The position numbers were made by a program, and so were the translations under genes. The notes under the pieces are model-generated. The model worked only from the letters and a program-made list of their open reading frames with translations, searched no databases and was not told where the DNA came from. From NCBI GenBank assembly GCA_018267285.1, contig JAFDYU010000019.1, positions 211,961 through 275,960 of the forward strand: a DNA stretch of 64,000 bases, given 5' to 3'. The stretch's first letter is position 1; each line of letters starts with the position of its first letter. This DNA comes from Bacteroidota bacterium (GTDB taxonomy: Bacteria > Bacteroidota > Bacteroidia > Cytophagales > Cyclobacteriaceae). Of this stretch, positions 19,615 through 35,331 are shown piece after piece.

Positions 19615-19633
19615 AACGTATTTTGCTTTGTAT

Positions 19634-22606
19634 ATGATGTTCATTCGGCAGTTGAGCGGTTTGTTGTTGGTGGCGTTTTTTTTGTTCGGCTTTTTTAAAG
19701 CGGATGCTACGCACTTGCGTGCAGGCGATATTACCATAAAGAGACTAAGCTGCAACAGCAACACGTTTCAAATTACCCTGCACGTCTATACCCGAACCAG
19801 TGTAGTTACAAAATTCAGTATGGGCGGTGCGGGTAGCTTAAATTTTGGAGACGGCAGTGCTATCTTTCATCCGCCCGAAATAGATTTTCCCCCAATCATT
19901 GGCCAATCGGATAACGGCCCCATTGGAGAGGTTACGTTCACGGTAACGCACACTTACGGCAGCAACGGGCTGTACACCATTACCTATTCTGAACAGAATC
20001 GCAACGAGGGAATATTGAATATTGATAATTCCGTCAATACACCTTTTTTTATGCAGACCCAGATTTTGATAGACGATGGTGTGGGCTGCAATAATTCACC
20101 GGAGTTGTTGGTGCCGCCCATCGACCGTGGCTGTACTGGGGTTAAATGGTTTCATAATCCTGGGGCTTACGATCCCGATGGCGACAGCCTTTCGTACGAG
20201 TTGTTTGTGCCCAAGCAGGGTGCTGTTTACGATGACAACGGGGTGTTAATTTCAAGCCTTGATGTAGGGGGCTATCGTCAGCCCAATAACAATGAATTTT
20301 ACACCGGCTCAGCCCAAAAAGAACCACCCGGTGTTGGGCCCGCTACGTTTTCAATAGATCCGTTGACGGGCACACTTACCTGGGATGCCCCCGGTGAGGC
20401 AGGCGAATACAATGTGGCTTTCCTAATACGCGAATGGCGAAAGGTATTTGGCCAATGGGTGTGTTTAGGCTACGTGGAGCGCGATATGCAGATTGTTATC
20501 CAAAACTGTACGAACCAACGTCCGCAACTTCAAGTGCCTGCAGATATTTGTGTAACGGCTGGAACTTTAATTACCGAAGATATTTATGCCACAGACCCGG
20601 ATGGCAGCACCTTGGGCGGTGGAGCCGGCAAAGGCGACAGTGTAAAAATTGAGGCGTTCTCACAAATCTTCAGCATTAATCCTAACAAGGCAAAAATTTC
20701 ACCCGATTCGGGCGTGTGGCAACCTACCCTAAGCCCGGTGCAACAAGCACACATTCAATTAAAATGGCAAACGGCCTGCGAGCATGTTAAAGAACAGCCC
20801 TACGAAGTGGTCTTTAAAGCCACCGACAACGGTAGCCCTCCCTTATCTACTTTCGATGCCTGGAAGATCATGGTGGTGGCTCCTGCACCGATTTGGAATA
20901 CAATAACGTTAAACCCCGGGCAACGATCATCACAGCTCTCGTGGCAGCCGTATGCATGCAAGTCTGCAACCAACGCTGCAACTATGCAAGTATGGCGCAG
21001 GGTCGACAGTTCGCCATTTACACCTTCTACGTGCATAACCGGAATTCCCGACTCACTCGGCTACACCATGATTGGTGAAGTACCCATCGGCAGTTCGGGC
21101 TTCTTAGATCAAAAACTTGCAGCAGGTGCTGAATATTGTTATCGGTTAGTGGCCACTTTTTCTGACGGGAGTTTAAGCTACGTATCGACTGAATATTGTA
21201 TACCTCCTATATTAGCCGATGCCCCAGTAATTACCAATGTAACGATCGACAGCACCGATCTATCGACCGGGAAGATTACTATCAAATGGAGGTCACCGTT
21301 CGAGGCTGACCAAGGGCAGTTTCCCAAACCGTACACCTTTGTTGTGATGCGTGCCGAAGGATTTAACGGCAACATCAATTTAATCACGGTAAGCAAAGGC
21401 CAGCAGTCGGACAGCACGTTTTCGGATGACGGCTTGAATACCCGCGATCTCGTTTACAACTATCGGATAATTGCTTTTGCAAGCAACGGCAATAGGGTAG
21501 ATACCTCTGCTGCTGCTTCCTCAGTGCGGCTGGATTTAAAACCCCAATTCAAACAAGTTCAGCTTACCTGGGGCGCTGATGTGCCCTGGTCCAACAACAC
21601 GCCTCAATATCCTATTCATTTAATTTACCGCACCCCTAATTCTTTAGCAGAAACCATAAGCGAGCTTACCCTGATCGATAGTGTGAATGTAACGCAGCGG
21701 CCTGTGTTGATGTATGTAGATTCGGGTCAGTACAACGGTGTGCCGTTAGATCAAAAACAAAACTATTGTTACGCAGTGATGACGCGCGGCTCGTACGGCA
21801 ATCCAAAAATTAAAGCTCCACTTATTAATTTTTCAGAAATAACTTGCGCCATACCCGGAGACACCCTCAAGCCCTGTAAGCCTTTGGTGGTGGCTACGGG
21901 AGGCGGGTGCTCGAGCAACAATACCTTTTGCCCCGGTGATGGCAACACCGGAGCTATTCCCTACAGCAATGTAGTGCGCTGGAAAAGGCCGGCTGATACA
22001 GATTGCCGAGCCGACATCAGAAAATACAACGTTTATGCCTCGTCCGATGGCCAGAATTTTAATATCGTTGCAAGTGTTGTCGATACTTTCTATGTAGATG
22101 CCGGGTTAAACTCATCCGCACGTTGCTATAAAATATCTTCGGTAAACCGGGCTGGCAAAGAGAGCGATTTAACGGATCAATTCTGCTTTGATAATTGCCC
22201 GTATTATGCGCTGCCCAATGTGTTTACTCCAAACGGAGATGGCTGTAATGATTTGTTCAGCGCGTACAGCATCAGAAGGTACGGAGATCCCGATTCGGGA
22301 GATTACCCTCCGTGCAATACCAGCACAGATCAAATCAACAATATAAAAACATGGTGTGCCCGCTTTGTGCTCAGCGTTAACTTTACCGTTTACAACCGAT
22401 GGGGTAGGGAAGTGTACAACTATCAGGGGAACGGTAACGATGGCGATCAAGGCAGCGGTGTGTTCATTGATTGGAACGGAAAAGACAATGCCGGCCGCGA
22501 CTTAGATGCCGGTACCTACTACTACGTGGCCAACGTAGTATTTAATGTGGTAGACCCCAAACGGAAAAGCCAAACCGTTAAAGGATGGGTGCAACTCATG
22601 AGGTAG
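19634..22606 (+). CDS. Large secreted protein with gliding-motility C-terminal (CHU_C) domain
   Basis: A 990-residue exported protein. The N-terminus is a signal peptide (LLLVAFFLFGFFKADA) followed by THLRAGDITIKRL, a conserved opening found in large Bacteroidota surface proteins. The middle has repeated Ig/fibronectin-like beta segments and many NGD/DPDG turns. The last 130 residues are the CHU_C type B sorting domain (LPNVFTPNGDGCNDLF, VYNRWGREVY, WNGKD..GRDLDAGTYYY), which targets proteins to the type IX secretion system. ATG 19634 is chosen over the TTG at 19628. Likely role: cell-surface adhesin or gliding component; the exact ligand is unknown. Confidence 0.9.
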   Translation: MMFIRQLSGLLLVAFFLFGFFKADATHLRAGDITIKRLSCNSNTFQITLHVYTRTSVVTKFSMGGAGSLNFGDGSAIFHPPEIDFPPIIGQSDNGPIGEVTFTVTHTYGSNGLYTITYSEQNRNEGILNIDNSVNTPFFMQTQILIDDGVGCNNSPELLVPPIDRGCTGVKWFHNPGAYDPDGDSLSYELFVPKQGAVYDDNGVLISSLDVGGYRQPNNNEFYTGSAQKEPPGVGPATFSIDPLTGTLTWDAPGEAGEYNVAFLIREWRKVFGQWVCLGYVERDMQIVIQNCTNQRPQLQVPADICVTAGTLITEDIYATDPDGSTLGGGAGKGDSVKIEAFSQIFSINPNKAKISPDSGVWQPTLSPVQQAHIQLKWQTACEHVKEQPYEVVFKATDNGSPPLSTFDAWKIMVVAPAPIWNTITLNPGQRSSQLSWQPYACKSATNAATMQVWRRVDSSPFTPSTCITGIPDSLGYTMIGEVPIGSSGFLDQKLAAGAEYCYRLVATFSDGSLSYVSTEYCIPPILADAPVITNVTIDSTDLSTGKITIKWRSPFEADQGQFPKPYTFVVMRAEGFNGNINLITVSKGQQSDSTFSDDGLNTRDLVYNYRIIAFASNGNRVDTSAAASSVRLDLKPQFKQVQLTWGADVPWSNNTPQYPIHLIYRTPNSLAETISELTLIDSVNVTQRPVLMYVDSGQYNGVPLDQKQNYCYAVMTRGSYGNPKIKAPLINFSEITCAIPGDTLKPCKPLVVATGGGCSSNNTFCPGDGNTGAIPYSNVVRWKRPADTDCRADIRKYNVYASSDGQNFNIVASVVDTFYVDAGLNSSARCYKISSVNRAGKESDLTDQFCFDNCPYYALPNVFTPNGDGCNDLFSAYSIRRYGDPDSGDYPPCNTSTDQINNIKTWCARFVLSVNFTVYNRWGREVYNYQGNGNDGDQGSGVFIDWNGKDNAGRDLDAGTYYYVANVVFNVVDPKRKSQTVKGWVQLMR

Positions 22607-22992
22607 AGAAACTTATTTTTTTTGATGGAGTTTGCGGCCTGTGCAATGCCTGGGTGCAGTTTGTGATTCATCGAAACAAAAAAAAATCACTGTTCTTTAC
22701 TCCGCTTCAGTCGGATTATTCAAAAAATCTTCTGCAACAAGTTCAGGTTGAAACTAATGTGCAAACAATAATTTATTTTAAGAAAGGAAAATTATTTTTT
22801 AAAAGTGACGCAGTTTTAGAAATTGCGAGAGAGTTACGTGGGCTGTGGCCGTTGTTTTTTGTTTTAAAAGTGATCCCCCGGTTTTTTAGAGATTATATTT
22901 ACGATAAAGTTGCAACACACAGGTACAAGTGGTTTGGTAAGTTGCCCGAGTGCAGATTGCCCACACCCGATTTGAAAGATCGTTTCCTGTAA
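22585..22992 (+). CDS. DCC-family thiol-disulfide oxidoreductase
   Basis: A 135-residue thioredoxin-like protein of the DUF393/DCC family, named for the N-terminal DxxCxxC: here FFDGVCGLCN with Cys17 and Cys20. It also shows FTPLQSDYS and a C-terminal segment with YDKVATHRYKWFG typical of the family. The start lies 22 bases inside the end of the CHU_C gene, which suggests coupled translation, although a functional link between them is not evident. Substrate unknown. Confidence 0.9.
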   Translation: MGATHEVEKLIFFDGVCGLCNAWVQFVIHRNKKKSLFFTPLQSDYSKNLLQQVQVETNVQTIIYFKKGKLFFKSDAVLEIARELRGLWPLFFVLKVIPRFFRDYIYDKVATHRYKWFGKLPECRLPTPDLKDRFL

Positions 22993-23048
22993 CGATTTGC
23001 AGCAATGAGTTTTATCTTCTACTTTGAATTCTAAATTTCGATAATCGC

Positions 23049-23924
23049 ATGAAAGCATTCATTTTTCCTGGACAAGGCGCTCAGTTTACAGGCATGGGTA
23101 AAGACCTTTTTGATACCAACACTAAAGCAAAAACCCTTTTTGATACAGCTAATAAAATTCTAGGGTTCAACATTACCGAGGTTATGTTTGGTGGAACTGC
23201 CGAAGAATTAAAACAAACCAAGGTAACACAACCTGCTGTTTTTATTCACTCAGTCTTGGTGGCCATTTGTCAAGAGGGGCAACGACCTGCTTTGGTGGCG
23301 GGGCACTCGTTGGGTGAGTTTTCTGCCTTGGTAGCCAATGGTGCACTTTCATTTGAAGATGGACTCAAACTGGTGAGCCAACGAGCAAGTGCTATGCAAA
23401 AGGCATGTGAGAAAAATCCATCTACTATGGCTGCTATCTTGGGGCTGGACGATAAAGTTGTAGAGGAAATCTGTGCCTCTATTTCAGATGAAATTGTAGT
23501 GGCCGCTAATTACAATTGTCCCGGGCAGTTGGTGATATCGGGCTCGAACAAAGGTATAGAAATTGCCTGCGAAAAGATGAAAGCTGCCGGTGCAAAACGC
23601 GCATTGCCGTTGCAGGTGGGTGGGGCATTTCACTCTCCGCTGATGGAACCCGCCCGCGAAGAATTGGCCACCGCTATAAATGCAACAAAATTCAATGACC
23701 CATTTTGCCCGGTGTATCAAAACGTAAATGCACTTGCCGCAACCGATGTGTCTGCGATTAAAAATAATTTGATCGCTCAACTCACGGCACCCGTTCGGTG
23801 GACACAAACCGTGCAAAATATGGCTACGGCCGGTACAACATCGTTTGTTGAATGTGGGCCGGGCAAAGTATTGCAGGGCTTGGTAAAGAAAATTGCTCCT
23901 ACGGCCGAGGCCGTCAGTCTTTAA
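23049..23924 (+). CDS. fabD: Malonyl-CoA-ACP transacylase
   Basis: Moves malonyl from CoA to acyl carrier protein for fatty-acid elongation. The 291-residue protein starts with AFIFPGQGAQFTGMGKDL, has the nucleophile Ser87 in GHSLGE, the substrate Arg in LVSQRASAMQ, and the catalytic His in GGAFHSPLM. The C-terminus keeps VECGPGKVLQGLVKK. It stands apart from the fabH-acc block at 6-10 kb. Its stop overlaps the folK stop by 11 bases on the opposite strand. Confidence 0.97.
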   Translation: MKAFIFPGQGAQFTGMGKDLFDTNTKAKTLFDTANKILGFNITEVMFGGTAEELKQTKVTQPAVFIHSVLVAICQEGQRPALVAGHSLGEFSALVANGALSFEDGLKLVSQRASAMQKACEKNPSTMAAILGLDDKVVEEICASISDEIVVAANYNCPGQLVISGSNKGIEIACEKMKAAGAKRALPLQVGGAFHSPLMEPAREELATAINATKFNDPFCPVYQNVNALAATDVSAIKNNLIAQLTAPVRWTQTVQNMATAGTTSFVECGPGKVLQGLVKKIAPTAEAVSL

Positions 23925-24405
23925 AAATCTTTACGCTCAGCCTATCGCTACTTTCGCATGCCAGTTGTTCATTAGATTTCTTCAGTAACGGATGTACAAA
24001 ATCGGGGCTTATTTCGGCCAACGGAATTAAAACAAAATTTCGTTCGTGCATTCGCGGGTGCGGGATAATGAGTTGATTGGATGCGATGATTTCATCACCA
24101 AAATAGATAATGTCTATATCGATAACACGTGCTCCCCACTTTTCTTTTCGTAGTCTACCCATGTCCATTTCAATGGATAGAATTTTTTCTAACAAATCAA
24201 CGGCAGGAACACTACACTCAACTTGAATCACTTGATTAAGAAAATCCGGCTGATCTGTTTTGCCCCAAGCTCTGGTTTCGTATATAGAAGAGGTCTTGAT
24301 GATTCTACAAACGTATTGATCGATTAATTTTCTACATTGGTTTAGATGTGCCTTTCGGTTGCCAAGATTACTGCCGATGGAAATAAAAACAGTTCGATTC
24401 ACCAC
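23914..24405 (-). CDS. folK: HPPK, 6-hydroxymethyl-dihydropterin pyrophosphokinase
   Basis: Transfers pyrophosphate from ATP to 6-hydroxymethyl-7,8-dihydropterin in folate synthesis. The 163-residue protein opens with VFISIGSNLGNR, and shows SSIYETRAWG, DFLNQVIQVE, the metal-binding RVIDIDIIYFG and LIIPHPRMHERNFVLIPL, the standard HPPK motifs. It is divergent from sppA and overlaps the fabD end. A TACCTTTC sequence near 24414-24421 on the minus strand is a one-mismatch -7 box. Confidence 0.96.
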   Translation of the reverse strand: MVNRTVFISIGSNLGNRKAHLNQCRKLIDQYVCRIIKTSSIYETRAWGKTDQPDFLNQVIQVECSVPAVDLLEKILSIEMDMGRLRKEKWGARVIDIDIIYFGDEIIASNQLIIPHPRMHERNFVLIPLAEISPDFVHPLLKKSNEQLACESSDRLSVKIFKD

Positions 24406-24456
24406 AATTATTTCCGAAAGGTAACCAACCTCCTTTATTAACCGTTTAGGTTTGTT

Positions 24457-24464
24457 TACTTTTG
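24457..24464 (+). promoter_or_regulatory. -7 promoter box for sppA
   Basis: TACTTTTG fits TAnnTTTG, 20 bases ahead of the sppA ATG. The -33 region is T-rich but lacks a clear TTG. Confidence 0.5.
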
Positions 24465-24483
24465 ACCCCTAAAATTTAAGAAA

Positions 24484-26250
24484 ATGAATTTCTTTAAAAC
24501 ATTTCTGGCCTCGTGCCTCGGTTCGTTAATTGCACTTGTGCTGCTGGTTTTTTTAATCATCGGTATCTTCTCTGCAGCAATTTCCGGACTTTCGGGGGGC
24601 GATAAAATCGTAACCATCAACGACAATTCTGTATTGAACTTGAAACTCAATGTGCCCATAACCGAAATGGATATTGAAAACCCGTTTGAAGGATTGCCGT
24701 TTCCCGGGATAGACGAAGTTGCGGTAGGCTTATTACCTTTAAAACAAACTATAGAGCATGCCGCTACCGATCCTTCTATTAAAGGAATTTATCTTGAGGT
24801 AAGCTTATTTCAGGGCGGCTATGCGCAAGCAAAAGAAATTCGCGAAGCTTTAATAAATTTTAAGAAATCGGGAAAATGGATTGTGGCGTACTCAGAATTT
24901 TTCACCGAAAATTCTTATTACATCGCTTCGGTCGCAGATAAAATATATTTAAACCCCGAAGGCGAACTTGAACTTAACGGGCTGGCCGTTGAAGTCAGCT
25001 TCTATAAAAAACTGTTCGATAAATTAGAGATCAAGCCTGAAATTTTCCGCGTGGGCGATTTTAAAAGTGCTGTTGAACCTTTCTTCCTCGATAAAATGAG
25101 TGATGCCAACCGCTTACAATTACGGGCATTGATTGATGATATTAATAATTCTACAAATCTCGAAATAGCGGAGGCTAGAAAAATCGATAATACCGAATTA
25201 AAAAAGATAACCGATCAAATGCTGGTGACAGCTCCGGAAGATGCGGCTAAGTATCGATTGGTTGATTCATTGTTTTATTTCGATCAGGTTCAAGCAGAGC
25301 TTAGAAATAGGTTGGGGCTGGGCAAAAACGGGAAGATCAACCTTGTGAAGTACAGCAAATACAAGAAGAGTTTTACCAACGTATCAACTTCCAAGAATGA
25401 AATAGCCGTGATAGTTGCCGAAGGTGAGATAATACCCGGTAAAGCCGGTGAGAGCAGCATCGGATCAGAAACCTTTGCCGAAGAATTGCGGAAAGCAAGA
25501 ACAAACGACCGCGTGAAGGCAATTGTGCTGCGCATCAATTCACCGGGAGGGAGCGCGCTGGCTTCGGATGTAATGTGGCGCGAAGTGGTGCTCGCCACAA
25601 AAGAAAAACCGGTTATTGCTTCCATGTCAACCTATGCGGCATCGGGTGGTTATTATTTGGCTATGGGTTGCGATACCATTGTGGCCGAGCCTACAACCAT
25701 CACGGGTTCAATTGGTGTGTTTAGCGTGCTGTTCGATCTGAGCGGTTTCCTCGGAAACAAACTGGGCATTACATTCGATGAAGTGAAGACCGGAGAGTTC
25801 AGCGATATCGCCACATTTACCAGACCACTCACGACTGCCGAAAAATCCATTTGGCAGAAGAAGACCAACAAAATTTATGAAGGATTCACCACGAAAGCAG
25901 CCGATGGCCGTGGTATGGAGGTGGAACAACTTCGTTCAGTGGCTTCGGGCCGTGTATGGACAGGCACACAAGCCAAAGAAAAAGGATTGGTAGATGTGTT
26001 GGGTGGCTTTGACGATGCCGTGAAGATTGCCGCAGAGAAAGCTGGTGTAGCAAACGATTACAAACTGCGGTTCTACCCGAAACAGAAAAATTTCCTGGCA
26101 CAATGGCTCGAAGACTTAGAAGAAAATTCAAAGACAAGCATTTTAAAAAACGAACTGGGTGAAGGCTATGAAACATTCCGACAACTGAAGAAAGCTCAGC
26201 AGTTGCAGGGTGCCCAGACGCGCTTACCTTTTGAGTTTCAATGGAAATAA
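24484..26250 (+). CDS. sppA: Signal peptide peptidase SppA, 67 kDa type
   Basis: Membrane-bound serine protease that degrades leftover signal peptides. The 588-residue protein has one N-terminal membrane anchor (residues about 8-32) and the tandem S49 architecture of long SppA: the N-half with the general-base Lys region (YYIASVADKIYLNPEG) and the C-half with the nucleophile Ser in STYAASGGYYLAMGCDTI and the TITGSIGVFS motif. Length matches E. coli SppA (618 residues). bioB follows after 29 bases and may share the transcript. Confidence 0.95.
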   Translation: MNFFKTFLASCLGSLIALVLLVFLIIGIFSAAISGLSGGDKIVTINDNSVLNLKLNVPITEMDIENPFEGLPFPGIDEVAVGLLPLKQTIEHAATDPSIKGIYLEVSLFQGGYAQAKEIREALINFKKSGKWIVAYSEFFTENSYYIASVADKIYLNPEGELELNGLAVEVSFYKKLFDKLEIKPEIFRVGDFKSAVEPFFLDKMSDANRLQLRALIDDINNSTNLEIAEARKIDNTELKKITDQMLVTAPEDAAKYRLVDSLFYFDQVQAELRNRLGLGKNGKINLVKYSKYKKSFTNVSTSKNEIAVIVAEGEIIPGKAGESSIGSETFAEELRKARTNDRVKAIVLRINSPGGSALASDVMWREVVLATKEKPVIASMSTYAASGGYYLAMGCDTIVAEPTTITGSIGVFSVLFDLSGFLGNKLGITFDEVKTGEFSDIATFTRPLTTAEKSIWQKKTNKIYEGFTTKAADGRGMEVEQLRSVASGRVWTGTQAKEKGLVDVLGGFDDAVKIAAEKAGVANDYKLRFYPKQKNFLAQWLEDLEENSKTSILKNELGEGYETFRQLKKAQQLQGAQTRLPFEFQWK

Positions 26251-26279
26251 TTCTGTTATCAATCATCAATTAAATTACC

Positions 26280-27275
26280 ATGATTCGAAACAACTGGACT
26301 CGTGCAGAGATAACCGAAATCTACAATACCCCCATATTGGATTTGATCTATCGAGCAGCAACAATGCACCGTCAATTTCACGATGCCCAAGAGGTACAGG
26401 TTTGCACGCTTCTCTCCGTTAAAACCGGAGGTTGCCCCGAAGACTGTTCGTATTGCCCGCAAGCCGCACGCTATCACACCGATGTGAAAGTGCATAAGTT
26501 GATGGAAGTAGATGAGGTAATGCAGAAAGCACTCGAGGCCAAAGAAGCCGGGAGTACCCGCTTTTGCATGGGCGCTGCCTGGCGCGAGGTAAGGGATAAC
26601 AAAGATTTTGATAAAGTGCTTTCCATGGTGAAAGGTGTAAGCACACTGGGGATGGAGGTTTGCTGCACCCTCGGAATGCTTACCCATGAACAAGCCGAAA
26701 AACTAAAGGATGCCGGGCTTTACGCCTACAACCACAACCTCGATACCAGCGAAGAATTTTACTCGGAAATAATTACAACGCGTACCTACAAGGATAGGCT
26801 GGAAACGCTCGAAAATGTGCGCACCGCCAAAATATCGGTGTGCTCGGGAGGAATTATAGGAATGGGCGAAAACGATGATGAACGGATAGGCATGTTGCTC
26901 ACTTTAGCCACTTTACCAGAGCATCCGGAGTCGGTACCGGTCAATGCCCTGATTCCCGTTGCCGGAACTCCACTCGAAGATCAGGAAAAAGTCTCTGTTT
27001 GGGAGATGGTCCGCATGGTTGCCACCGCACGTATTATTATGCCCAAAGCTATGGTGAGGTTATCGGCTGGCCGCGTGCGTATGACGGTGGAAGAACAAGC
27101 CCTATGTTTTTTGGCCGGAGCCAACAGTATTTTTGCGGGAGACAAACTACTTACTACACCTAACCCGGGCGTTGTGCAAGACCAAGAGATGTTTCAAATT
27201 CTGAACCTTAAGCCCAGAAAGTCTTTCAAAGACTCAGAAAAGAAAAGCACAAAAACCCACACCCAGGTTATCTAA
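26280..27275 (+). CDS. bioB: Biotin synthase
   Basis: Radical-SAM enzyme that inserts sulfur into dethiobiotin. The 331-residue protein has the 4Fe-4S motif CPEDCSYC (Cys52, Cys56, Cys59), the SAM region [15 protein letters not shown], the second-cluster ligands in YNHNLDTS and [10 protein letters not shown], and AGRVRMTVE near the end. This supplies the cofactor used by the AccB protein at 7.6 kb. It is close behind sppA and converges on the tiny gene at 27320-27484. Confidence 0.97.
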
Positions 27276-27319
27276 AACGATGACCAAAATGTGGATTTTT
27301 GTGCGAAAAACAAGCAAAA

Positions 27320-27484
27320 TCAGTACTTGTCTTCAGAAATGAGCCCACCGATAGGCTCGCTATCGGAGTTCATTTTTACAACTTCCTTGGTCGCTTTTTT
27401 AGCTGCCTTGGTGGAAGAAGTGAAAGCAAAAGACAAAGCAACGATAGCTGATATGGCAATCAAGCCTAGAATTTTGGTTTTCAT
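27320..27484 (-). CDS. Tiny exported protein A (54 aa), unknown function
   Basis: A 54-residue ORF with a clear signal peptide: MKTKI then a hydrophobic core (LGLIAISAIVALSFAF) and a possible signal-peptidase site around STKA-AKK, leaving a mature peptide of about 27 residues that contains TKEVV, PIGG and ends in EDKY. It starts 30 bases after the stop of tiny protein B on the same strand and so is probably cotranscribed. Both share a T(K/E)EVV motif just after the exported segment. No family is recognised. A longer ORF on the opposite strand (27291-27518) is a shadow. Confidence 0.7.
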   Translation of the reverse strand: MKTKILGLIAISAIVALSFAFTSSTKAAKKATKEVVKMNSDSEPIGGLISEDKY

Positions 27485-27514
27485 AATTGATGTGTTTAGA
27501 TTTTTAATTTTTGA

Positions 27515-27652
27515 TTAGCAACCTTTGTCGCAGTTGGCTACGCCACCTGATCCACCAGAGGTTTCTTTAGGATTAACTACCTCTTCGGTACAGGCTGAGA
27601 ATGAAACAGCAAGTGTGGCTACGAGTGCGAGGGTGTAAAGTACTTTTTTCAT
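27515..27652 (-). CDS. Tiny lipoprotein B (45 aa), unknown function
   Basis: A 45-residue ORF starting MKKVLYTLALVATLAVSF and followed by a lipobox-like FSAC, so the Cys at residue 21 is a likely lipidation site. The mature part starts C-T-E-E-V-V, has a Gly/Ser stretch (SGGSGG) and ends CDKGC with two further cysteines that might form a disulfide. A consensus promoter lies in front of it. The gene is divergent from the TPR histidine kinase with 84 bases between their starts. Function unknown; an extracellular lipopeptide, signal or envelope-stress reporter are guesses. Confidence 0.7.
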   Translation of the reverse strand: MKKVLYTLALVATLAVSFSACTEEVVNPKETSGGSGGVANCDKGC

Positions 27653-27692
27653 GTTGGTTTTGGTTTAAGATTGATTATTTTAAATTGCGGTG

Positions 27693-27720
27693 CAAAAGTA
27701 ACAACTACTTTTTTAAACCA
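27693..27720 (-). promoter_or_regulatory. Promoter of the tiny exported-protein pair
   Basis: On the minus strand a TTG (27718-27720), about 17 bases of spacer, and TACTTTTG (27693-27700), a full consensus match, 41 bases ahead of the 45-aa gene. Confidence 0.6.
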
Positions 27721-27736
27721 ATAATTTTTTAACCTC

Positions 27737-29896
27737 GTGTTCCACAAGTCGATTATATTTTTAATAACTATTTTTCCTTCACTGTTATATGCGCAAGCGA
27801 AACGAGTTGATTCGCTGAAAAAAAACTTGGAATTAAATTTAAAAAAAGACACTTCGCGGTTCGATATTCTATATGAGTTAGCATACGAATATTCGGGAGA
27901 AATTGACTCTGTTTCGCTAGTGTACTCAACGCTCGCCTATGATTTGGCACTGGAACTAAACGATACGGCCAGGATTGTAAAGGGAGGGAGGATCAAGGCA
28001 GGTGAGCTTAGAAGAACCGAAAAGCTTGATGCATCAATTCAGCTTGCGAAATACCTTTTGCCGATTGCTAAAAGGAATGGAAGAATGTTTGATTTGAAAC
28101 TCCTCCTTACCTCAATAGCTGTTTCATATACTAATAAGGCCGAATACGATAAGGCACTTAAATATGATTTTGAGGCATTGGTTGTTAGGGAAAATGAAGG
28201 TGACAAGAAAGGCATGAGCATAGTCTTAAATAACATCGGAGTGATCTACTACAAACTTCATGATGTAAGAAGTGCTTTGGAATATTACAATAAGGCACTC
28301 GATCTAAAAAAAGAAATGAAAGATAAGTACGATCTTGATCGGCTTTATATTAATATGGGAGAATGCTACAATCTTTTAGAGGAGCATGCCGTAGCAAAAG
28401 AATTTATCGAGAATGGATTGAATTCTTGTGAGGGAAAATGTTCTGACCAAATCATTCTTGAAGGTGAACTTGCGTTAGGGACTTCTCTATCTGAAAGCGG
28501 AAGAGAGGAGGAGTCAATAGAACATTTCATCGCCTCACTTAACGTAGCAAAGAAAATAAATAATTATAGATTCCAGGCTGAGAATTTGATTGCTATTGCC
28601 AAAGTGTATTTAAAAAAGAAAAATTTTGAAAATGTTAAAAAATATCTGAAAGAAACGGAATCAATAGCCAGAGATAAGGGTTACCGCTTTTTATTGGAAA
28701 CAACCTATAAACTTTTCTCCGAGCTTTATGAAAAAACAGCAGATTACAAAAATCAGTCGGTGTATCAATCCAAATACATAAAACTTAAAGACAGCATTCT
28801 GAGTGAAAAAGTCATCAGCAACCTTTCTCAGTTAAGAACAGATTATCAGGAGCGCGAAAACATTAAGACCATTGCCGAAAAAGATCAAGTGTTGCTTTTG
28901 CAGAAAGAAATAATCAAACGTCAGCAACGTCAATATTTTTTTATTGTTACCATTGCCTGTCTTATCGCTGCGCTTGCCTATGCTTTGTTTTATTTTCACA
29001 GACGGCAACAGAGAGCCAAGCAAAAAATTGAAGAGCAAAATATCTTGCTGGAGGTCCACAACCGCGAGCTTGAAGAAAACGTGCGCGAACGCACCAGCGA
29101 CTTGTTCCACTCCATGGAAGAACTACACCGCGTGAACGATGACCTCGACAATTTAATATACAAAACCTCGCACGATTTGTCGGGTCCGTTGGCCTCCATG
29201 AAAGGCTTGAGCAACTTGGCTTTGATGGAAGTGAAAGATGAACACGCCACCTTCTATTTAAAAAAATTAGATGAGATAGTAAACAAATTCCATTTAGTGC
29301 TCTCGCGCCTCAGCACAGTAAATAAAATTACGGATCACCAGTTGAAGCCCTCAAAAGTTGACTTTGATACAATATTAGATGACTTGATTTCATCCGAGAA
29401 ACAAAAGGGCCTCCCTCAGGATTTCGAGTTTCAACGATCGATCGATAAAAATTTGAAATTCGAGTCGGATGAATTTATTGTGTACCTGATTTTAGAAAAT
29501 CTGATTGACAACGCCATTAAATATTACAACACCACTAAAGAAGTAAAACCCTACGTAAAAGTTACCGTGAGCATGGAGGGTGCTTTCGGTAAAATTGAAA
29601 TTGAAGACAACGGCATTGGTATAGGAACCAACGAGCAAAATCATATTTTCTTAATGTTCAACCGTGCCTCAGAGCGGTCTGAAACCGGTGGGGTAGGCCT
29701 TTACCTTATCCGCCAGGCCGTAGAAAAAATCGGAGGTCAAATTAGATTGATCCACTCGTCATCGCAAGGCTCTAAATTTCAAGTGCTTATTCCAGATTTA
29801 CACCCGGTGTTGCAAAAACGAAACGAACAAGAAAAAAAATTGATCGAGTTCCTAGAGCAGTCAGACCATAAAGGCATTATTTCACCGATTATCTGA
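27737..29896 (+). CDS. TPR sensor histidine kinase with signal peptide
   Basis: A 719-residue membrane kinase. The order is: signal peptide (SIIFLITIFPSLLYAQA) after a GTG start, an extracytoplasmic array of TPR repeats (residues about 25-380, for example GVIYYKLHDVRSALEYYNKAL), one membrane helix (FFIVTIACLIAALAYALFYF, about residues 397-416), a coiled coil, the HisKA box SHDLSGPLAS with His479, and an HATPase domain with DNGIGIG and TGGVGLYLI. No receiver domain or response-regulator gene is nearby, so it is an orphan. It is divergent from two tiny exported proteins, which could be its ligands or targets; that link is only inferred. Confidence 0.88.
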   Translation: MFHKSIIFLITIFPSLLYAQAKRVDSLKKNLELNLKKDTSRFDILYELAYEYSGEIDSVSLVYSTLAYDLALELNDTARIVKGGRIKAGELRRTEKLDASIQLAKYLLPIAKRNGRMFDLKLLLTSIAVSYTNKAEYDKALKYDFEALVVRENEGDKKGMSIVLNNIGVIYYKLHDVRSALEYYNKALDLKKEMKDKYDLDRLYINMGECYNLLEEHAVAKEFIENGLNSCEGKCSDQIILEGELALGTSLSESGREEESIEHFIASLNVAKKINNYRFQAENLIAIAKVYLKKKNFENVKKYLKETESIARDKGYRFLLETTYKLFSELYEKTADYKNQSVYQSKYIKLKDSILSEKVISNLSQLRTDYQERENIKTIAEKDQVLLLQKEIIKRQQRQYFFIVTIACLIAALAYALFYFHRRQQRAKQKIEEQNILLEVHNRELEENVRERTSDLFHSMEELHRVNDDLDNLIYKTSHDLSGPLASMKGLSNLALMEVKDEHATFYLKKLDEIVNKFHLVLSRLSTVNKITDHQLKPSKVDFDTILDDLISSEKQKGLPQDFEFQRSIDKNLKFESDEFIVYLILENLIDNAIKYYNTTKEVKPYVKVTVSMEGAFGKIEIEDNGIGIGTNEQNHIFLMFNRASERSETGGVGLYLIRQAVEKIGGQIRLIHSSSQGSKFQVLIPDLHPVLQKRNEQEKKLIEFLEQSDHKGIISPII

Positions 29897-29933
29897 TTTT
29901 CATTTCGCATCTTTGCCTTTTCATTTTTAGTCG

Positions 29934-32039
29934 ATGAATAAGAATTACCAGCGATACACAGTCACTGCGGCACTACCTTATGCCAACGGCCCTAAACACA
30001 TAGGTCACCTTGCCGGGGCATACATTCCGGCCGATGTTTATGTGCGTTACCTGCGCCTAAGTGGAAAAGATGTGATTTTTGTTTGTGGCAGCGATGAACA
30101 TGGCACGGCCATTCCCAATCAGGCCTTAAAGGAAAAAACTACCCCGCAGGCAATCATCGACAAATACGATTCACTCATCCGCGATTGTTTCTATAAACTC
30201 GGAATGTCGTTCGATATTTACCATCGAACCAGCGAGCCGATTCATCACCAAACCTCACAAGATTTTTTTTTAACACTGCACCAAAAAGGGTTGCTCACCG
30301 AAGAGGTATCGGAGCAGTACTACGATGAAGAAGCAAAAGTTTTTTTGGCCGACCGATATATTGTTGGAACCTGCCCCAAATGTGGCTATGCCAATGCTTA
30401 CGGAGACCAATGCGAGAAGTGCGGATCTTCATTAAGCCCAAGCGAACTGATCAACCCCCGATCAACCCTTTCGGGGAAATCACCGGTGTTGCGGCCCACC
30501 AAGCACTGGTATTTGCCGTTGCAGAATTACGAAAGTTGGTTGCGAGAATGGATCCTTGAATCGCACAAAGAAGATTGGCGAGCCAGTGTTTATGGCCAAT
30601 GCAAATCGTGGATTGATGCGGGGCTTCAACCGCGCGCAATGACTCGCGACTTAAATTGGGGTATAAAAGTGCCGCTCCCCGATGCAGAAGGAAAAGTGCT
30701 CTATGTTTGGTTTGATGCACCCATCGGTTACATCTCTGCAACTCGGGCGCTGTTTGAGGAGATTGCAGAGAAAAAGAAAAAATTTGCTACACCTCAACGC
30801 GATTTTGGAAAAATACAGAAAGACGATTGGAAGAAGTATTGGCACAATGAAGAAACGAAACTGGTTCATTTCATTGGCAAGGACAACATCGTGTTTCATT
30901 GCATAATTTTTCCCATTATGCTTCATGCTTCAGGTGAATATATTTTACCCGATAATGTACCTGCCAATGAATTTATGAACTTGGAGGGAGATAAGATGAG
31001 CACAAGCAGAGGCTGGTCTATTGAGATGCACGAATACCTCGAAGATTTTCCCGACAAGCCCGATGTGCTGCGTTATGTATTGCTCACCAACTTGCCCGAA
31101 ACAAAAGATAGTGAGTTCACTTGGAAAGATTTTCAAGCGAAGAACAACAACGAGCTTGTTGCCATTTTTGGAAATTTTGTGAACCGTGCGTTGGTGCTCA
31201 CCCAAAAATATTTCGACAACAAAATACCCGCACTTGGAGCGTTGATCGATGTTGACAAAAACATAATTTCGGAATTAAAAAATTTTCCGTCTCAGATTGC
31301 CTTTTCTCTTGAGAGCTATCGTTTCCGCGAAGCAACCGCATCGTTGATGGATTTGGCGCGACTCGGAAATAAATATTTGGCAGAAACAGAACCGTGGAAG
31401 TTGGCAAAAAACGATCTGCCGAGAGTAGGCACCATCTTGAATCTTGCGTTGCAGATTGTGGCAAACCTCGCAGTAGTCTGTGAGCCGTTTTTGCCGTCTT
31501 CTTCTAAGAAGCTGAAAGAAATGCTTGCCTTCGATGGAACAGATTGGACAAAAACCGGAAGTATAGATTTGATGAAAGCCGGGCATCCATTGGGTAATGC
31601 CAGTCTGCTTTTTGAAAAAATCGAAGATCAGGTTATAGAGAATCAAATAAAGAAACTGAACGATAAAAAGAACGCTATGGAATTAGCTTCATTGCCGGCC
31701 GAGGCCGCCAAACCGGAAATATCATTTGAAGAATTTTCAAAAATGGATATCCGAATAGGCAAAATTTTAAAAGCTGAACCGGTAGAGAAATCAAAAAAAC
31801 TATTGAAACTTCAAGTGGATACCGGCATTGATGTGCGCACCGTAATGAGCGGTATTGCCGAACATTTTTCTCCTGAAGAAATCACCGGAAAACAAATAAC
31901 TATTTTGGTTAATCTTGCGCCAAGAAAAATAATGGGGGTGGAGTCGCAAGGCATGATTTTGATGGCTTCGGATAAAGATGGGAAGTTGAGATTGTTGCAG
32001 CCGAGTGAAGTTGTAGCACCCGGATCAAAAGTTAGCTAA
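29934..32039 (+). CDS. metG: Methionyl-tRNA synthetase
   Basis: Charges tRNA-Met. The 701-residue class I enzyme has the HIGH-type motif PKHIGHLAG, a zinc knuckle with two CxxC pairs (CPKCG...CEKCG), the KMSKS-type GDKMSTSRG and the anticodon-binding helical domain. The last 110 residues (from about [16 protein letters not shown]) are an EMAP/Arc1p-like OB fold that binds tRNA and supports dimerisation. The gene opens a series of translation genes but is separated from thrS by a short spacer with its own promoter box. Confidence 0.97.
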
Positions 32040-32053
32040 TAGCCAACAGAAGT

Positions 32054-32061
32054 TATATTTG
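32054..32061 (+). promoter_or_regulatory. -7 promoter box for thrS
   Basis: TATATTTG fits TAnnTTTG, 20 bases before the thrS ATG. No clear -33 TTG. Confidence 0.45.
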
Positions 32062-32080
32062 CATTTCTAAAAATTAACTA

Positions 32081-34015
32081 ATGAACATTAAGATAACGTT
32101 GCCTGATGGAAGCATTCGTGAGTTTCCACAGGAAGTGAAAGGAATTGAAATTGCACAAAGCATCAGTGAAGGGTTGATGCGCAACGCACTGGCGATTGAG
32201 GTAAACGGAGAAATTTGGGACCTGTCGCGTTCAATAACAAAAGATTCATCTATAAAAATTTTTACCTGGAATGATAAAGGCGGCAAGTATGCCTTCTGGC
32301 ATTCGTCTGCTCACTTGTTTGCCGAAGCATTGGAAGCTCTTTACCCCGGAGTAAAATTTGGCATTGGGCCCCCAATCGAAAATGGCTTTTACTACGATGT
32401 GGATTTGGAAGGCAGAACATTTGGAGATGAAGAACTAGCTGCGGTAGAAAAGAAGATGAGCGAGCTTGCTAAAGTGAACAGCGTCTTTGTTCGCAAAGAT
32501 GTTTCCAAGGCAGAAGCCATTGAGTATTTTACCAAGAAAGGCGATCAATATAAATTAGAATTGATCGATGGGTTGCAAGACGGATCGATCACCTTTTACC
32601 AGCAGGGAAATTTCGTAGACCTATGCCGGGGGCCACACATCCCTTCAACAGGGCCGATCAAAGCAATAAAACTTTTGAACATAGCGGGCGCGTATTGGCG
32701 TGGCGATGAAAAGAACAAAATGCTCACACGCATTTATGGCATCACGTTTCCTAAGCAAAAGGAATTAGACGAATATCTTCATTTGCTCGAAGAAGCAAAA
32801 AAACGCGATCATCGTAAGCTTGGGAAAGAACTCGAACTGTTTGCGTTTTCTGAAAAAGTTGGCCAAGGCTTACCGCTGTGGTTGCCTAAGGGAACCATCC
32901 TTCGTGAGCGGCTGGAGCAATTCATGCGCAGGGCGCAGATCAAAGCGGGCTACGATCCGGTTGTTACTCCGCACATCGGCAGCAAAGATTTGTATGTCAC
33001 TTCGGGGCATTATGAAAAATATGGAAAAGACTCCTTCAAACCCATCAAGACCCCTGACGAGAATGAAGAATTCTTACTCAAACCGATGAACTGCCCGCAC
33101 CATTGCGAGATATACAAAGTGAAACCCCGTTCGTACAAGGAACTGCCCATTCGGTTGGCTGAATTTGGAACGGTATATCGTTACGAACAAAGCGGGGAAC
33201 TTCATGGGCTCACCCGGGTGCGGGGCTTCACCCAAGACGATGCGCACATTTTTTGTCGGCCCGATCAGGTAAAAGCTGAGTTTGTAAAAGTGATTGACCT
33301 GGTGCTGCACGTATTTCAGTCGCTGGGGTTCGAAAATTATACCGCCCAGGTTTCGTTGCGCGATCCGGAGAACAAACAAAAATACATTGGCGATGACGAA
33401 CTGTGGAACCGTGCCGAGCGCGAAATCCAGGAAGCGGCAGACGAGCGCGGGCTGAAGACCATTGCCGTAAAGGGCGAGGCTGCCTTCTACGGCCCTAAGC
33501 TCGACTTCATGGTGCGCGATGCACTTGGCAGAAGCTGGCAGTTAGGTACTATTCAAGTAGATTACCAGTTGCCGCAGCGTTTTGAACTTGAATACGTTGG
33601 TTCTGATAATCAGAAGCACACACCCGTGATGATCCACCGTGCACCGTTTGGTTCGCTGGAGCGATTTGTGGCTGTGCTGATCGAACATTGTGCGGGTAAC
33701 TTCCCGCTTTGGCTTGCGCCCGAACAATTTGCAGTATTGCCGATTTCTGAAAAGTTTAACGACTACGCCCAAAAGGTTGTAGATAAGTTGAAAGAATCCG
33801 ACATCCGCGGATTTTTGGATGACCGCGATGAAAAGATAGGCCGTAAGATTCGTGATGCAGAAGTGAAGAAAGTGCCGTTCATGCTCATTGTAGGCGAAAA
33901 AGAGGCTACCGATAGCAAAGTAGCTGTACGCAAACATGGCGAAGGCGACAAAGGTGCGATGGGGCTGAATGAATTTGTTGAGCAGTTTAAGTCAGATTTT
34001 AGTATGCCCGGCTAA
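32081..34015 (+). CDS. thrS: Threonyl-tRNA synthetase
   Basis: Charges tRNA-Thr and edits mischarged Ser-tRNA. The 644-residue class II enzyme has an N-terminal TGS domain ([12 protein letters not shown]), an editing domain with [11 protein letters not shown], the catalytic core with motif 2 ([25 protein letters not shown] partly visible), the zinc-binding MNCPHH, and a C-terminal anticodon-binding domain ([14 protein letters not shown]). It precedes infC-rpmI-rplT, the same order as in enterobacteria. Confidence 0.98.
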
Positions 34016-34085
34016 TTTTGATAAACCAAAAAATTAGCGATATTTGCAGCCTGTTTTTAAAAAAGTAAGAATTTAAACCCAACGA

Positions 34086-34658
34086 GTGGCATTAAGACCA
34101 ACGAACAACCGGCCTTTTAATAGAGGATTTCGGCCGCGCGTAGTAGAAGAACCCTACCGCATTAATGAAAGAATAACCGCCCAGCGCGTGAGGGTGGTGG
34201 GCGAAAACATCAAAGTTGATGTTTACCCGATAGCTACAGCTATTAAGCTGGCGCAAGAACAAGGGTTGGACTTGGTGGAGATTTCGCCTAAGGCGGAACC
34301 CCCGGTTTGCAAAGTGGTTGACTACTCAAAGTTTAAGTACGAACAAAAAAAGAAACAGAAAGAAATCAAGGCCAACGCCCAGAAGTCGATTTTGAAAGAA
34401 ATCCGGTTTGGGCCAAATACCGATGACCACGATTTCAATTTTAAAGTGAAACACGCGGAGAACTTTCTGAAAGAAGGCGCAAAGGTAAAGGCCTACGTGC
34501 ACTTTGCCGGACGTTCGATTGTGTACAAAGAAAGAGGAGAGATTTTGCTGTTGAAGTTTGCTCAGTCGCTTGAAGAACTGGGAAAAGTAGAGCAGATGCC
34601 GCAGTTAGAAGGGAAGCGTATGTATTTGATGATGGCTCCCAAAGGAAAAGGAAAATAG
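34086..34658 (+). CDS. infC: Translation initiation factor IF-3
   Basis: Prevents premature subunit joining and checks start-codon pairing on the 30S subunit. The 190-residue protein has a basic N-terminal extension, the N-domain motif [16 protein letters not shown], the linker [13 protein letters not shown] and the C-domain [14 protein letters not shown] and [17 protein letters not shown]. The start must be GTG at 34086: a stop lies in frame at 34074 and no in-frame ATG occurs before the C-domain. A non-AUG start is the usual device for IF-3 self-regulation. Confidence 0.97.
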
Positions 34659-34676
34659 ATTTTAATAAGTTATACC

Positions 34677-34877
34677 ATGCCTAAGTTAAAAACCAAGTCA
34701 GGTGCCAAAAAGCGTTTTAAAGTTACCGGCACCGGTAAAATCAAACGCAAGAAAGCTTATGCCCGGCACATTCTGACAAAAAAAGAAACCAAACAGAAGC
34801 GAAACCTTGGCAAGAAGGTCACTGTAAAGAAAGTAGATGAGAGCAACATCAAGCCGATGCTGCCTTATTTAGTTTAG
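34677..34877 (+). CDS. rpmI: 50S ribosomal protein L35
   Basis: A 66-residue basic protein of the large subunit, recognised by [36 protein letters not shown] in pieces ([21 protein letters not shown]) and the ending KPMLPYL. It follows infC by 18 bases and lies in the classic infC-rpmI-rplT operon. Confidence 0.98.
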
Positions 34878-34879
34878 TA

Positions 34880-34970
34880 TAGGCTTTTGCCTTGAGCAAA
34901 GCCTGGTTTTATGTTCAACCCGGCCGATGGCACAAAGATTCTCTAAAAAAAAACGAGAGCGCCTACGGCC
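34880..34970 (+). promoter_or_regulatory. Structured spacer between rpmI and rplT
   Basis: Two possible hairpins: AGGCTTTTGC (34881-34890) with GCAAAGCCT (34896-34904), and a longer one pairing GGCCGATGGC (34922-34931) with GCCTACGGCC (34961-34970) plus CTCT (34941-34944) with AGAG (34956-34959). It could be an internal regulatory RNA such as an L20 binding site; the family match was not tested. Confidence 0.45.
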
Positions 34971-34986
34971 AAAAATGTAAAGTAAT

Positions 34987-35331
34987 ATGCCACGTTCAGT
35001 AAACAATGTTGCATCGCGCAAAAGGCGCAAAAGAGTGTTAGAGCAGGCCAAAGGTTATTTTGGCCGCGGTAAAAACGTTTGGACAGTCGCCAAGAATAAG
35101 GTCGAAAAAGGTATGGGTTATGCCTACCGCGACCGGAAGGCGAAGAAACGCGACTTCCGCTCACTTTGGATCACCCGTATCAATGCCGGGGCTCGCCAAT
35201 TCGGAATGTCGTATTCCGAATTTATGGGCAAAATTAAAACAGCAGGAATTGAATTAAACCGCAAAGCTCTTGCCGATCTGGCGGCTAACCACCCGCAAGC
35301 CTTCGAGGCTGTGGTAAAAAAACTGAAGTAA
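34987..35331 (+). CDS. rplT: 50S ribosomal protein L20
   Basis: Assembly and structural protein of the large subunit, 114 residues. It has the N-terminal basic extension ([22 protein letters not shown]), the [12 protein letters not shown] motif and [11 protein letters not shown], all invariant in L20. It lies 109 bases after rpmI, a wider gap than usual, with a structured spacer. L20 represses its own operon in several bacteria, which makes that spacer interesting. A terminator follows at 35352-35380. Confidence 0.98.

Follow-up and report, generated by a model that had tools for sequence, protein, structure and literature searches.

Two very small proteins with export signals, S45 and S54, are encoded divergently from an orphan sensor histidine kinase, TPRK, and the arrangement S54-S45(n)-<>-TPR kinase is found as a module across one GTDB family of environmental Bacteroidota. 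We think it probable (about 0.58) that the cell makes and exports S45 and S54 as ligands of this divergently encoded kinase, which would sense them through an extracytoplasmic helical-repeat (TPR) domain in a manner resembling the NlpE-CpxA pair or a pheromone system. The link of the two small genes to the kinase is strongly supported, because the partners co-occur in both directions, gene order and orientation are conserved, modules have been duplicated, some lie at other loci, and the peptides accompany essentially one kinase clade. The initial annotation of this DNA had suggested that the small products are a ligand or target of the kinase; the genetic part of that suggestion stands, and the further step, that they would be ligands rather than products regulated by the kinase, is the one argued below.

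Organization of the locus

The window is the whole stretch of DNA that was analysed, 64,000 nucleotides from a Bacteroidota bacterium (GenBank assembly GCA_018267285.1, contig JAFDYU010000019.1). On its minus strand lie S54 (27320..27484), a cysteine-free peptide of 54 codons with a predicted export signal, and S45 (27515..27652), a predicted micro-lipoprotein of 45 codons with the lipobox FSAC, both delimited from open reading frames and homologues and separated by 30 bases. The predicted mature S45 of the window, CTEEVVNPKETSGGSGGVANCDKGC, has 25 residues, and the C-terminal tail of S54 is of the type EPxGG[FL]xSEDK[FY]. S45 is present here as one copy, and relatives carry from one to five in tandem. 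The 84 bases between S45 and the GTG start of the kinase at 27737 form a divergent intergenic region (27653..27736) common to the S45-S54 unit and the kinase. The initial annotation had described the two reading frames, their export signals and spacing, and the gap to a kinase with an exported TPR array, and our reading of the frames, together with Pfam and hydropathy for the kinase, agrees with it. A T(K/E)EVV motif that it had noted in both peptides was rejected as a coincidence, because only one of the 69 distinct S54 sequences has it.

Within the intergenic region, a promoter-like element of the form TTG-N18-TACTTTTG, which we take to be the Bacteroidota consensus, is located on the minus strand (27693..27721), 48 bases upstream of the S45 start, and a related block occurs at that position in many relatives. 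The full-consensus promoter claimed earlier is present in the window but is not general, since the exact TAnnTTTG form is found at 6 of 77 loci compared with 3.3 expected. A looser variant at the same position occurs at 50/77 loci compared with 5.6 in shuffles, a descriptive figure because the variant was defined post hoc. Another block, G[TA]ACACnnG[TG], overlaps the start codon of the kinase (window 27733-27742, minus strand) and lies 5′ of S45 at 30/77 loci compared with 0.2 in shuffles, for a motif that was likewise picked post hoc. Rfam gave no match at 26000-30500 of the window.

The genes on either side were assigned by Pfam, and all are on the plus strand. They encode an S49 peptidase (sppA-like, 24484..26250), which is a frequent flank of the module by synteny, a Radical-SAM/BATS protein (bioB-like, 26280..27275), frequent but not constant in that position, and a methionyl-tRNA synthetase (metG-like, 29934..32039), a frequent flank 3′ of the kinase. 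A response-regulator domain was not found in the ten nearby genes scanned, from 19628 to 35331, in agreement with the earlier description of the kinase as lacking a regulator. The SppA-like peptidase gene often adjoins the two exported-micropeptide genes, perhaps only as a result of old synteny. Further upstream, a 992-aa protein (19628-22606) has a C-terminal CHU_C domain, a type IX secretion signal domain.

An orphan kinase with a predicted extracytoplasmic TPR domain

The kinase, TPRK (27737..29896, plus strand), is a protein of 719 aa delimited by its GTG start and characterized by Pfam, AlphaFold and hydropathy. It has a signal-like N terminus, a TPR domain at residues ~25-390, a single hydrophobic segment at ~399-421 by hydropathy, the acceptor histidine H479 and a HATPase domain at 578-687. 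The signal-like N terminus and the hydrophobic segment predict that the TPRs are outside the cytoplasm. HATPase_c scores 69.6 bits, above the Pfam cut-off, and HisKA is below it (16.2 vs 26.9 bits). Among 67 aligned kinases, H479 is present in 67, N592 in 65, D624 in 67 and G652 in 67. The acceptor histidine, the N and G boxes and the HATPase domain give TPRK the features by which a sensor histidine kinase is recognized from its sequence.

The AlphaFold model (mean pLDDT 88.4, 67 sequences) predicts helix pairs until residue ~354, followed by a long helix that enters the membrane segment. In Foldseek the model is matched best by kinase cores and by the LGN/Pins superhelix, structures of which have been solved with NuMA, Inscuteable or Frmpd4 according to their titles; likeness to superhelices that were solved with peptide partners is one of the points in favour of a ligand role for S45 and S54. 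NprR (E 3e-8) is one of the TPR proteins whose repeats match part of the ectodomain. A pair of cysteines in the TPR domain, C231-x3-C235 (codons 28427..28441, plus strand), is kept in most peptide-linked kinases, with C231 in 59/67 and C235 in 60/67 of those aligned. C231 is absent from the peptide-less L263, L264, L127, and the second kinases of L085 and L269, and also from three deep S45-bearing kinases (L265, L266 and L268). Related TPR sensor kinases are present in ~10 other families of the same order.

Conservation and co-occurrence among relatives

A search with the single S54 sequence gave matches at E<=0.1 in 25 of 116 genomes, a count to which the window's own genome contributes and of which 24 belong to the genus, and later profiles of the small proteins reach much of the GTDB family. 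For the kinase, 295 genomes of the family were searched with a profile, blind to the peptides, and for S54 a profile was applied to a draw equal to that one in size and number of genera. Kinases scoring at least 600 bits were found at 66 places in 65/295 genomes. S45 and/or S54 lie within ~1 kb at 63 of these places, and at the other three (G052, G516 and G539) a contig end cuts the peptide side. In the opposite direction, S54 at E<=1e-5 was detected in 57 genomes. Each of the 57 also matches the kinase at E<=1e-80, either whole or in broken form, and no such S54 was detected in the 199 genomes that had no kinase match. These absences of the kinase are soft, because only three kinase candidates were scored per genome. 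G344, for example, had no match to the first kinase profile, and kinases were found there with another; no peptides were found at L308, the G344 kinase that was read.

The S45 loci, 77 in all at one per genome, were collected via peptides or kinase and are therefore not an unbiased sample. The number of S45 copies is one at 53 loci, two at 12, three at eight, four at three and five at one. At 75 of the 77 the kinase is divergent and no more than 1 kb away, and the other two loci are at contig starts. Where both small genes are present, S54 is downstream of S45 in 68 of 69 loci, and the remaining one is a two-module locus. S54 was undetected at five S45 loci long enough to contain it (L259, L260, L265, L267 and L268), which counts against the ligand reading. 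In four loci of genus g55 (L136, L137, L138 and L139) the gene with two tandem copies is S54 rather than S45.

At the level of the order, the S45 profile matched 188/291 genomes at E<=0.01. Most of the matches listed are signal peptides of ordinary lipoproteins, within long reading frames, and the convincing ones among them belong to the family of the window; two small matches outside the family (L133 and L134) look generic. Of 18 further genomes without strong peptide or kinase matches, 17 yielded metG, and neither an orthologue of the kinase nor S45 or S54 was found next to it. At three of these 17 metG loci a different, longer kinase adjoins metG, and no small exported reading frame was picked up there.

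Linkage beyond inherited gene order

Because most loci share the stretch sppA-(bioB)-module-metG, old synteny could by itself account for the linkage. On that explanation, the small genes would act elsewhere and would be beside the kinase only because the neighbourhood is conserved, as the retention of the whole stretch might suggest. We regard this as quite improbable, in view of the two-way co-occurrence described above and of several loci that depart from the usual order. G027 has two modules in tandem (L257:2766-5443) and G042 has two that are ~12 kb apart (L145/L294); in both genomes the two kinases are accompanied by different S45 and S54-like peptides, the second S54 of G027 being a weak match (E 7e-4). 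In G065, G418 and G482 a divergent S45 lies beside a related kinase, and none of sppA, bioB and metG was found in the 7-19.5 kb read at these loci; two of the modules, those of G065 and G418, are close to a contig start. Duplicated modules and modules away from the usual flanks show that the linkage is more than inherited synteny.

The peptides are also selective in the kinases that they accompany. In a quick tree of 86 kinases, with several long branches and with kinase fragments excluded, 63 form one group (SH-aLRT 99). Peptides are found beside 60 members of this clade, two (G052 and G539) are cut by a contig end, and beside one, the kinase of G406, no peptide was detectable. G396 has an S45-like gene by a kinase that is outside the main clade, on a long branch. 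These two genomes, one with a peptide-less kinase inside the clade and one with an S45-like gene at a kinase outside it, count against the ligand reading. Neither S45 nor S54 is found at five other TPR loci of the window's own genome, the nearest paralogue of the kinase in that genome (L127) has no peptides, and none that is convincing was found in the ~1.5 kb flanks of 14 related kinase loci (13 outside the family and one inside), where a single weak S54-like match (E 0.034) looks spurious. These absences also speak against a shared neighbourhood as the whole explanation. A contig scan for generic kinase motifs, with 80 loci listed, showed peptides at L147 and L148 only; these are G554 and G067, already counted, and there were no new cases. 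L266 has an S45-like lipoprotein (L266:7469-7645) whose tail is a repeat of the VVRRGEDIRG type; its gene is at the end of a contig, beside a kinase outside the main clade.

Selection on the mature peptides

The suggestion that S45 and S54 are spurious reading frames might be prompted by their shortness and by scores below all family cut-offs, and its probability is next to nothing. Pooled over 13 genome pairs, in which some genomes occur twice, pN/pS is 0.19 for S54 and 0.21 for S45; both are under purifying selection, which refutes that suggestion. Lipobox, length and position are conserved in dozens of genomes, with both frames kept at the same place. The initial annotation had proposed conservation and codon substitution as checks on its two genes, and each came out in their favour, with a pooled ratio of ~0.2 for both.

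Tandem arrays of S45 provide a closer view. There are 36 adjacent copy pairs in 22 genomes, and nine of these pairs were left out for unequal mature length; L257, which has two different modules, and L017, a near twin of L098, were also omitted. Within arrays, pN/pS is 0.07 for mature S45 (at pS 0.365), 0.07 for the tail alone, and 0.35 for the signal peptide (at pS 0.364). The mature peptide is identical in 15 of 27 array pairs. In L098, for example, neighbouring copies have identical mature peptides, 10 synonymous differences and signal peptides that differ at seven residues, and those of L089 have 10 synonymous differences and four residue differences in the signal peptide. Some array copies do differ (L104, L105, L112, L113, L114 and L121). 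Since the codons have diverged, with equal pS, while the peptides are unchanged, it is selection and not copying that keeps mature S45 alike.

Across relatives the predicted mature S45 has 19-39 residues. A cysteine is in the expected range, by pattern, in all 107 distinct S45 sequences, and with its signal segment and lipobox cysteine S45 has the features of a predicted bacterial lipoprotein. The head that follows cleavage is of the form C-[TSA]-[KEDQ]-[EDQT]-x-[VI] in 91/93 distinct S45. At least two acidic residues are found at +2..+6 in 105/107, and proline at +8 in 103/107; an acidic pair at +2..+6 occurs in 18/70 crude ORF-derived lipoproteins of at least 100 aa from the same DNA. Lipoprotein surface-export signals described in Bacteroidetes are C-x-K-[DE]2-x in Capnocytophaga and SDDFE in Flavobacterium, with SDDDD also given in the available part of that account (PMC5080379). 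Exact C-x-K-[DE]2 is present in 17/107 S45. The head fits a LES-like surface-export signal, and a surface location for S45 is plausible.

The tails suggest a further connection between the two peptides. S45 and S54 have no visible homology, yet their final residues are alike within a genome, as in the picked examples GFERI/GLERI in L081, ADGPY/EDQAY in L113, and, in L121, ADDAF (one of three copies) and ADQAF. For 66 loci, reduced to 62 distinct tails, the mean S45-S54 tail score is 10.82, compared with 8.94 (sd 0.39) in within-genus shuffles (0/5000), a comparison in which kinship inside genera remains. The last residue is common to both peptides in 22/62, compared with 14.0 in within-genus shuffles. 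Peptide distances track the TPR part of the kinase better than the kinase core, with a partial r of 0.53 between tail and TPR-ectodomain distances. The covariation does not imply contact between peptide and ectodomain, because the value for the cleaved signal peptide, used as a control, is nearly as high (0.44).

These observations bear on a different explanation, in which S45 and S54 are outputs of the kinase: together with an unlinked response regulator, it would control the divergent promoter, and the peptides would be bulk small components of the envelope or surface. The divergent promoter arrangement and the recurring block before S45 are what such regulation would produce, tandem copies would fit a need for dosage, and the acidic head is like a surface-export signal. 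Bulk components of this kind are less easy to reconcile with a mature peptide that is near-identical across the copies of an array, even in its tail, while tails vary from one genome to another, or with the likeness of S45 and S54 tails, both of which suggest specific recognition. We consider this explanation unlikely, while giving it real weight.

Comparison with known systems

Neither S45 nor S54 of the window reaches a Pfam or NCBIfam cut-off. For window S45, AimP scores 21.7 against a cut-off of 35 (residues 1-23), Phr_nterm 12.7 against 25 (residues 1-19), and the PG1828 lipoprotein model 22.7 against 50. The last of these (NF050142) describes a small lipoprotein and matches 17 of 27 S45 sequences at E<=0.01 (best E 2.2e-6), but in three of them the match covers the signal region only (~1-28), at 22.7, 18.2 and 25.5 bits vs the cut-off of 50. 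The S45 of some relatives weakly match PG1828, AimP and RiPP models. DUF6520 (PF20130) weakly matches 8 of 16 S54 sequences at E<=0.1 (best E 0.011), and window S54 scores 15.6 over residues 1-41, below the gathering score of 25.4. PHROGs gave two weak matches to S54 (E 0.06 and 0.09) and none to S45.

The closest named relative of the kinase is FimS of Porphyromonas gingivalis, the model of which (NF053520) is the best NCBIfam match of TPRK (E 4e-32). TPRK is not FimS, because it scores 111.2 bits against a cut-off of 600. As described in the available portion of its report (PMC11053733), FimS has, as predicted for TPRK, a periplasmic domain of several TPRs, placed between two membrane segments and followed by a histidine-kinase core. 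FimS has the partner FimR, whereas no regulator was found in the ten genes scanned near TPRK, whose partner may be encoded elsewhere. The same portion states that the signal of FimS is not known, has the authors suggest possible polypeptide binding, and makes no mention of a peptide gene (PMC11053733).

NlpE and CpxA serve as a working model for our favoured reading of S45, by analogy and with no claim of homology. NlpE is an exported E. coli lipoprotein that activates the inner-membrane kinase CpxA when it accumulates at the inner membrane (PMC6593411). It is a two-domain protein, unlike the predicted mature peptide of S45, and CpxA senses via PAS-type domains, not TPRs, according to the title of PMC11078701. 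Comparison can also be made with peptide systems of a different topology, as follows.

In the RRNPP systems (NprR, Rap and PlcR), the gene of a TPR receptor lies beside that of a tiny exported peptide, and the receptors are cytoplasmic and bind processed peptides re-imported by oligopeptide permease. The module shares the pairing of TPR receptor gene and tiny exported peptide gene; it differs in that the TPRs of TPRK are predicted to be outside the cytoplasm and one of the peptides is a predicted lipoprotein. By analogy, the module would work like known peptide- or lipoprotein-sensing kinases, yet it fits no specific family tested. Titles and the starts of abstracts in the open-access literature held no description of a peptide or small-lipoprotein and kinase system like it, and no papers on NVEALA were found in that literature.

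How the peptides may act

In the mechanism that we propose, S45 would be exported, lipidated on its cysteine and cleaved to a lipopeptide of 19-39 residues, made up of an acidic head of the CTEEEV.P type and a short genome-specific tail. S54 would be exported too and would bear a similar tail. Binding of the tails to the extracytoplasmic TPR superhelix may set the activity of the kinase, which would thereby read the amount and envelope location of the peptides. We favour ligands over products because a TPR superhelix suits short extended peptides and because the tail has been selected like a recognized ligand.

A surface-bound S45 would not normally meet the periplasmic TPR domain, a point against the ligand reading in general, and one that would fit sentinel signalling when export stalls. 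As a sentinel, S45 would normally be shipped onward and would signal when it lingers near the inner membrane. We lean to such local use because the head of S45 resembles the surface-export signal of Bacteroidota. The principal alternative is action as a pheromone between cells, for which the peptide might be released by cutting or in vesicles.

It is possible, and we put this forward tentatively, that the module represents a new class of peptide signalling, in which a lipidated minimal peptide, usually with a tail-matched non-lipidated exported one, is read by an extracytoplasmic TPR-kinase, with ligand genes in tandem and, in some species, decoy TPR arrays. If so, a class of ligands for FimS-like TPR kinases would have come to light. 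The module provides a large natural set of candidate ligand-receptor pairs, including duplicated modules and tail variants, and opens the question of what extracytoplasmic TPR kinases sense to direct test. Among its products are a candidate ligand lipoprotein of very small size and a family of micro-proteins unnamed in the libraries searched.

Shortened TPR receptors

Several genomes carry shortened paralogues of the TPR kinase (502-540 aa), with TPRs, a membrane segment and a coiled region. The acceptor histidine is present in 0/12 by pairwise alignment, and the ATPase domain is absent. Both C231 and C235 are kept in 10 of the 12, C231 only in one, and neither in one. These proteins occur singly or in rows of at most four, and some are broken; they adjoin the module in L097 (7265-8830), L090 (6985-8529), L272, L274, L275 and L294, and lie away from it in L273 and L276. 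They look like decoys or co-receptors. That they keep the TPR part and not the catalytic part supports the ligand reading, and retention of the sensor part is a further point against S45 and S54 as mere outputs.

Shortened receptors in tandem beside some modules could also be taken as immunity proteins or decoys of a bacteriocin-like or RiPP-like system, in which S45 and S54 would be precursors of antagonistic or modified peptides and the kinase their inducer. Tandem copies and species-specific tails would suit such precursors, as would weak matches to the YxzE putative bacteriocin in 2 of 16 S54 (best E 0.011), to chryseobasin-related RiPPs in 3 of 27 S45 (best E 2.8e-4) and to cittilin in one. 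We think this improbable. Among the ten nearby genes of the window there is no modification enzyme, transporter or immunity gene, PADLOC gave no match to the peptides, and shortened receptors were observed in only ~10 genomes. The housekeeping flanks and vertical conservation of the module are also features that most bacteriocin loci do not have. In addition to the paralogues described above, L023 and L025 probably have one shortened paralogue each, with a match that ends near residue 520.
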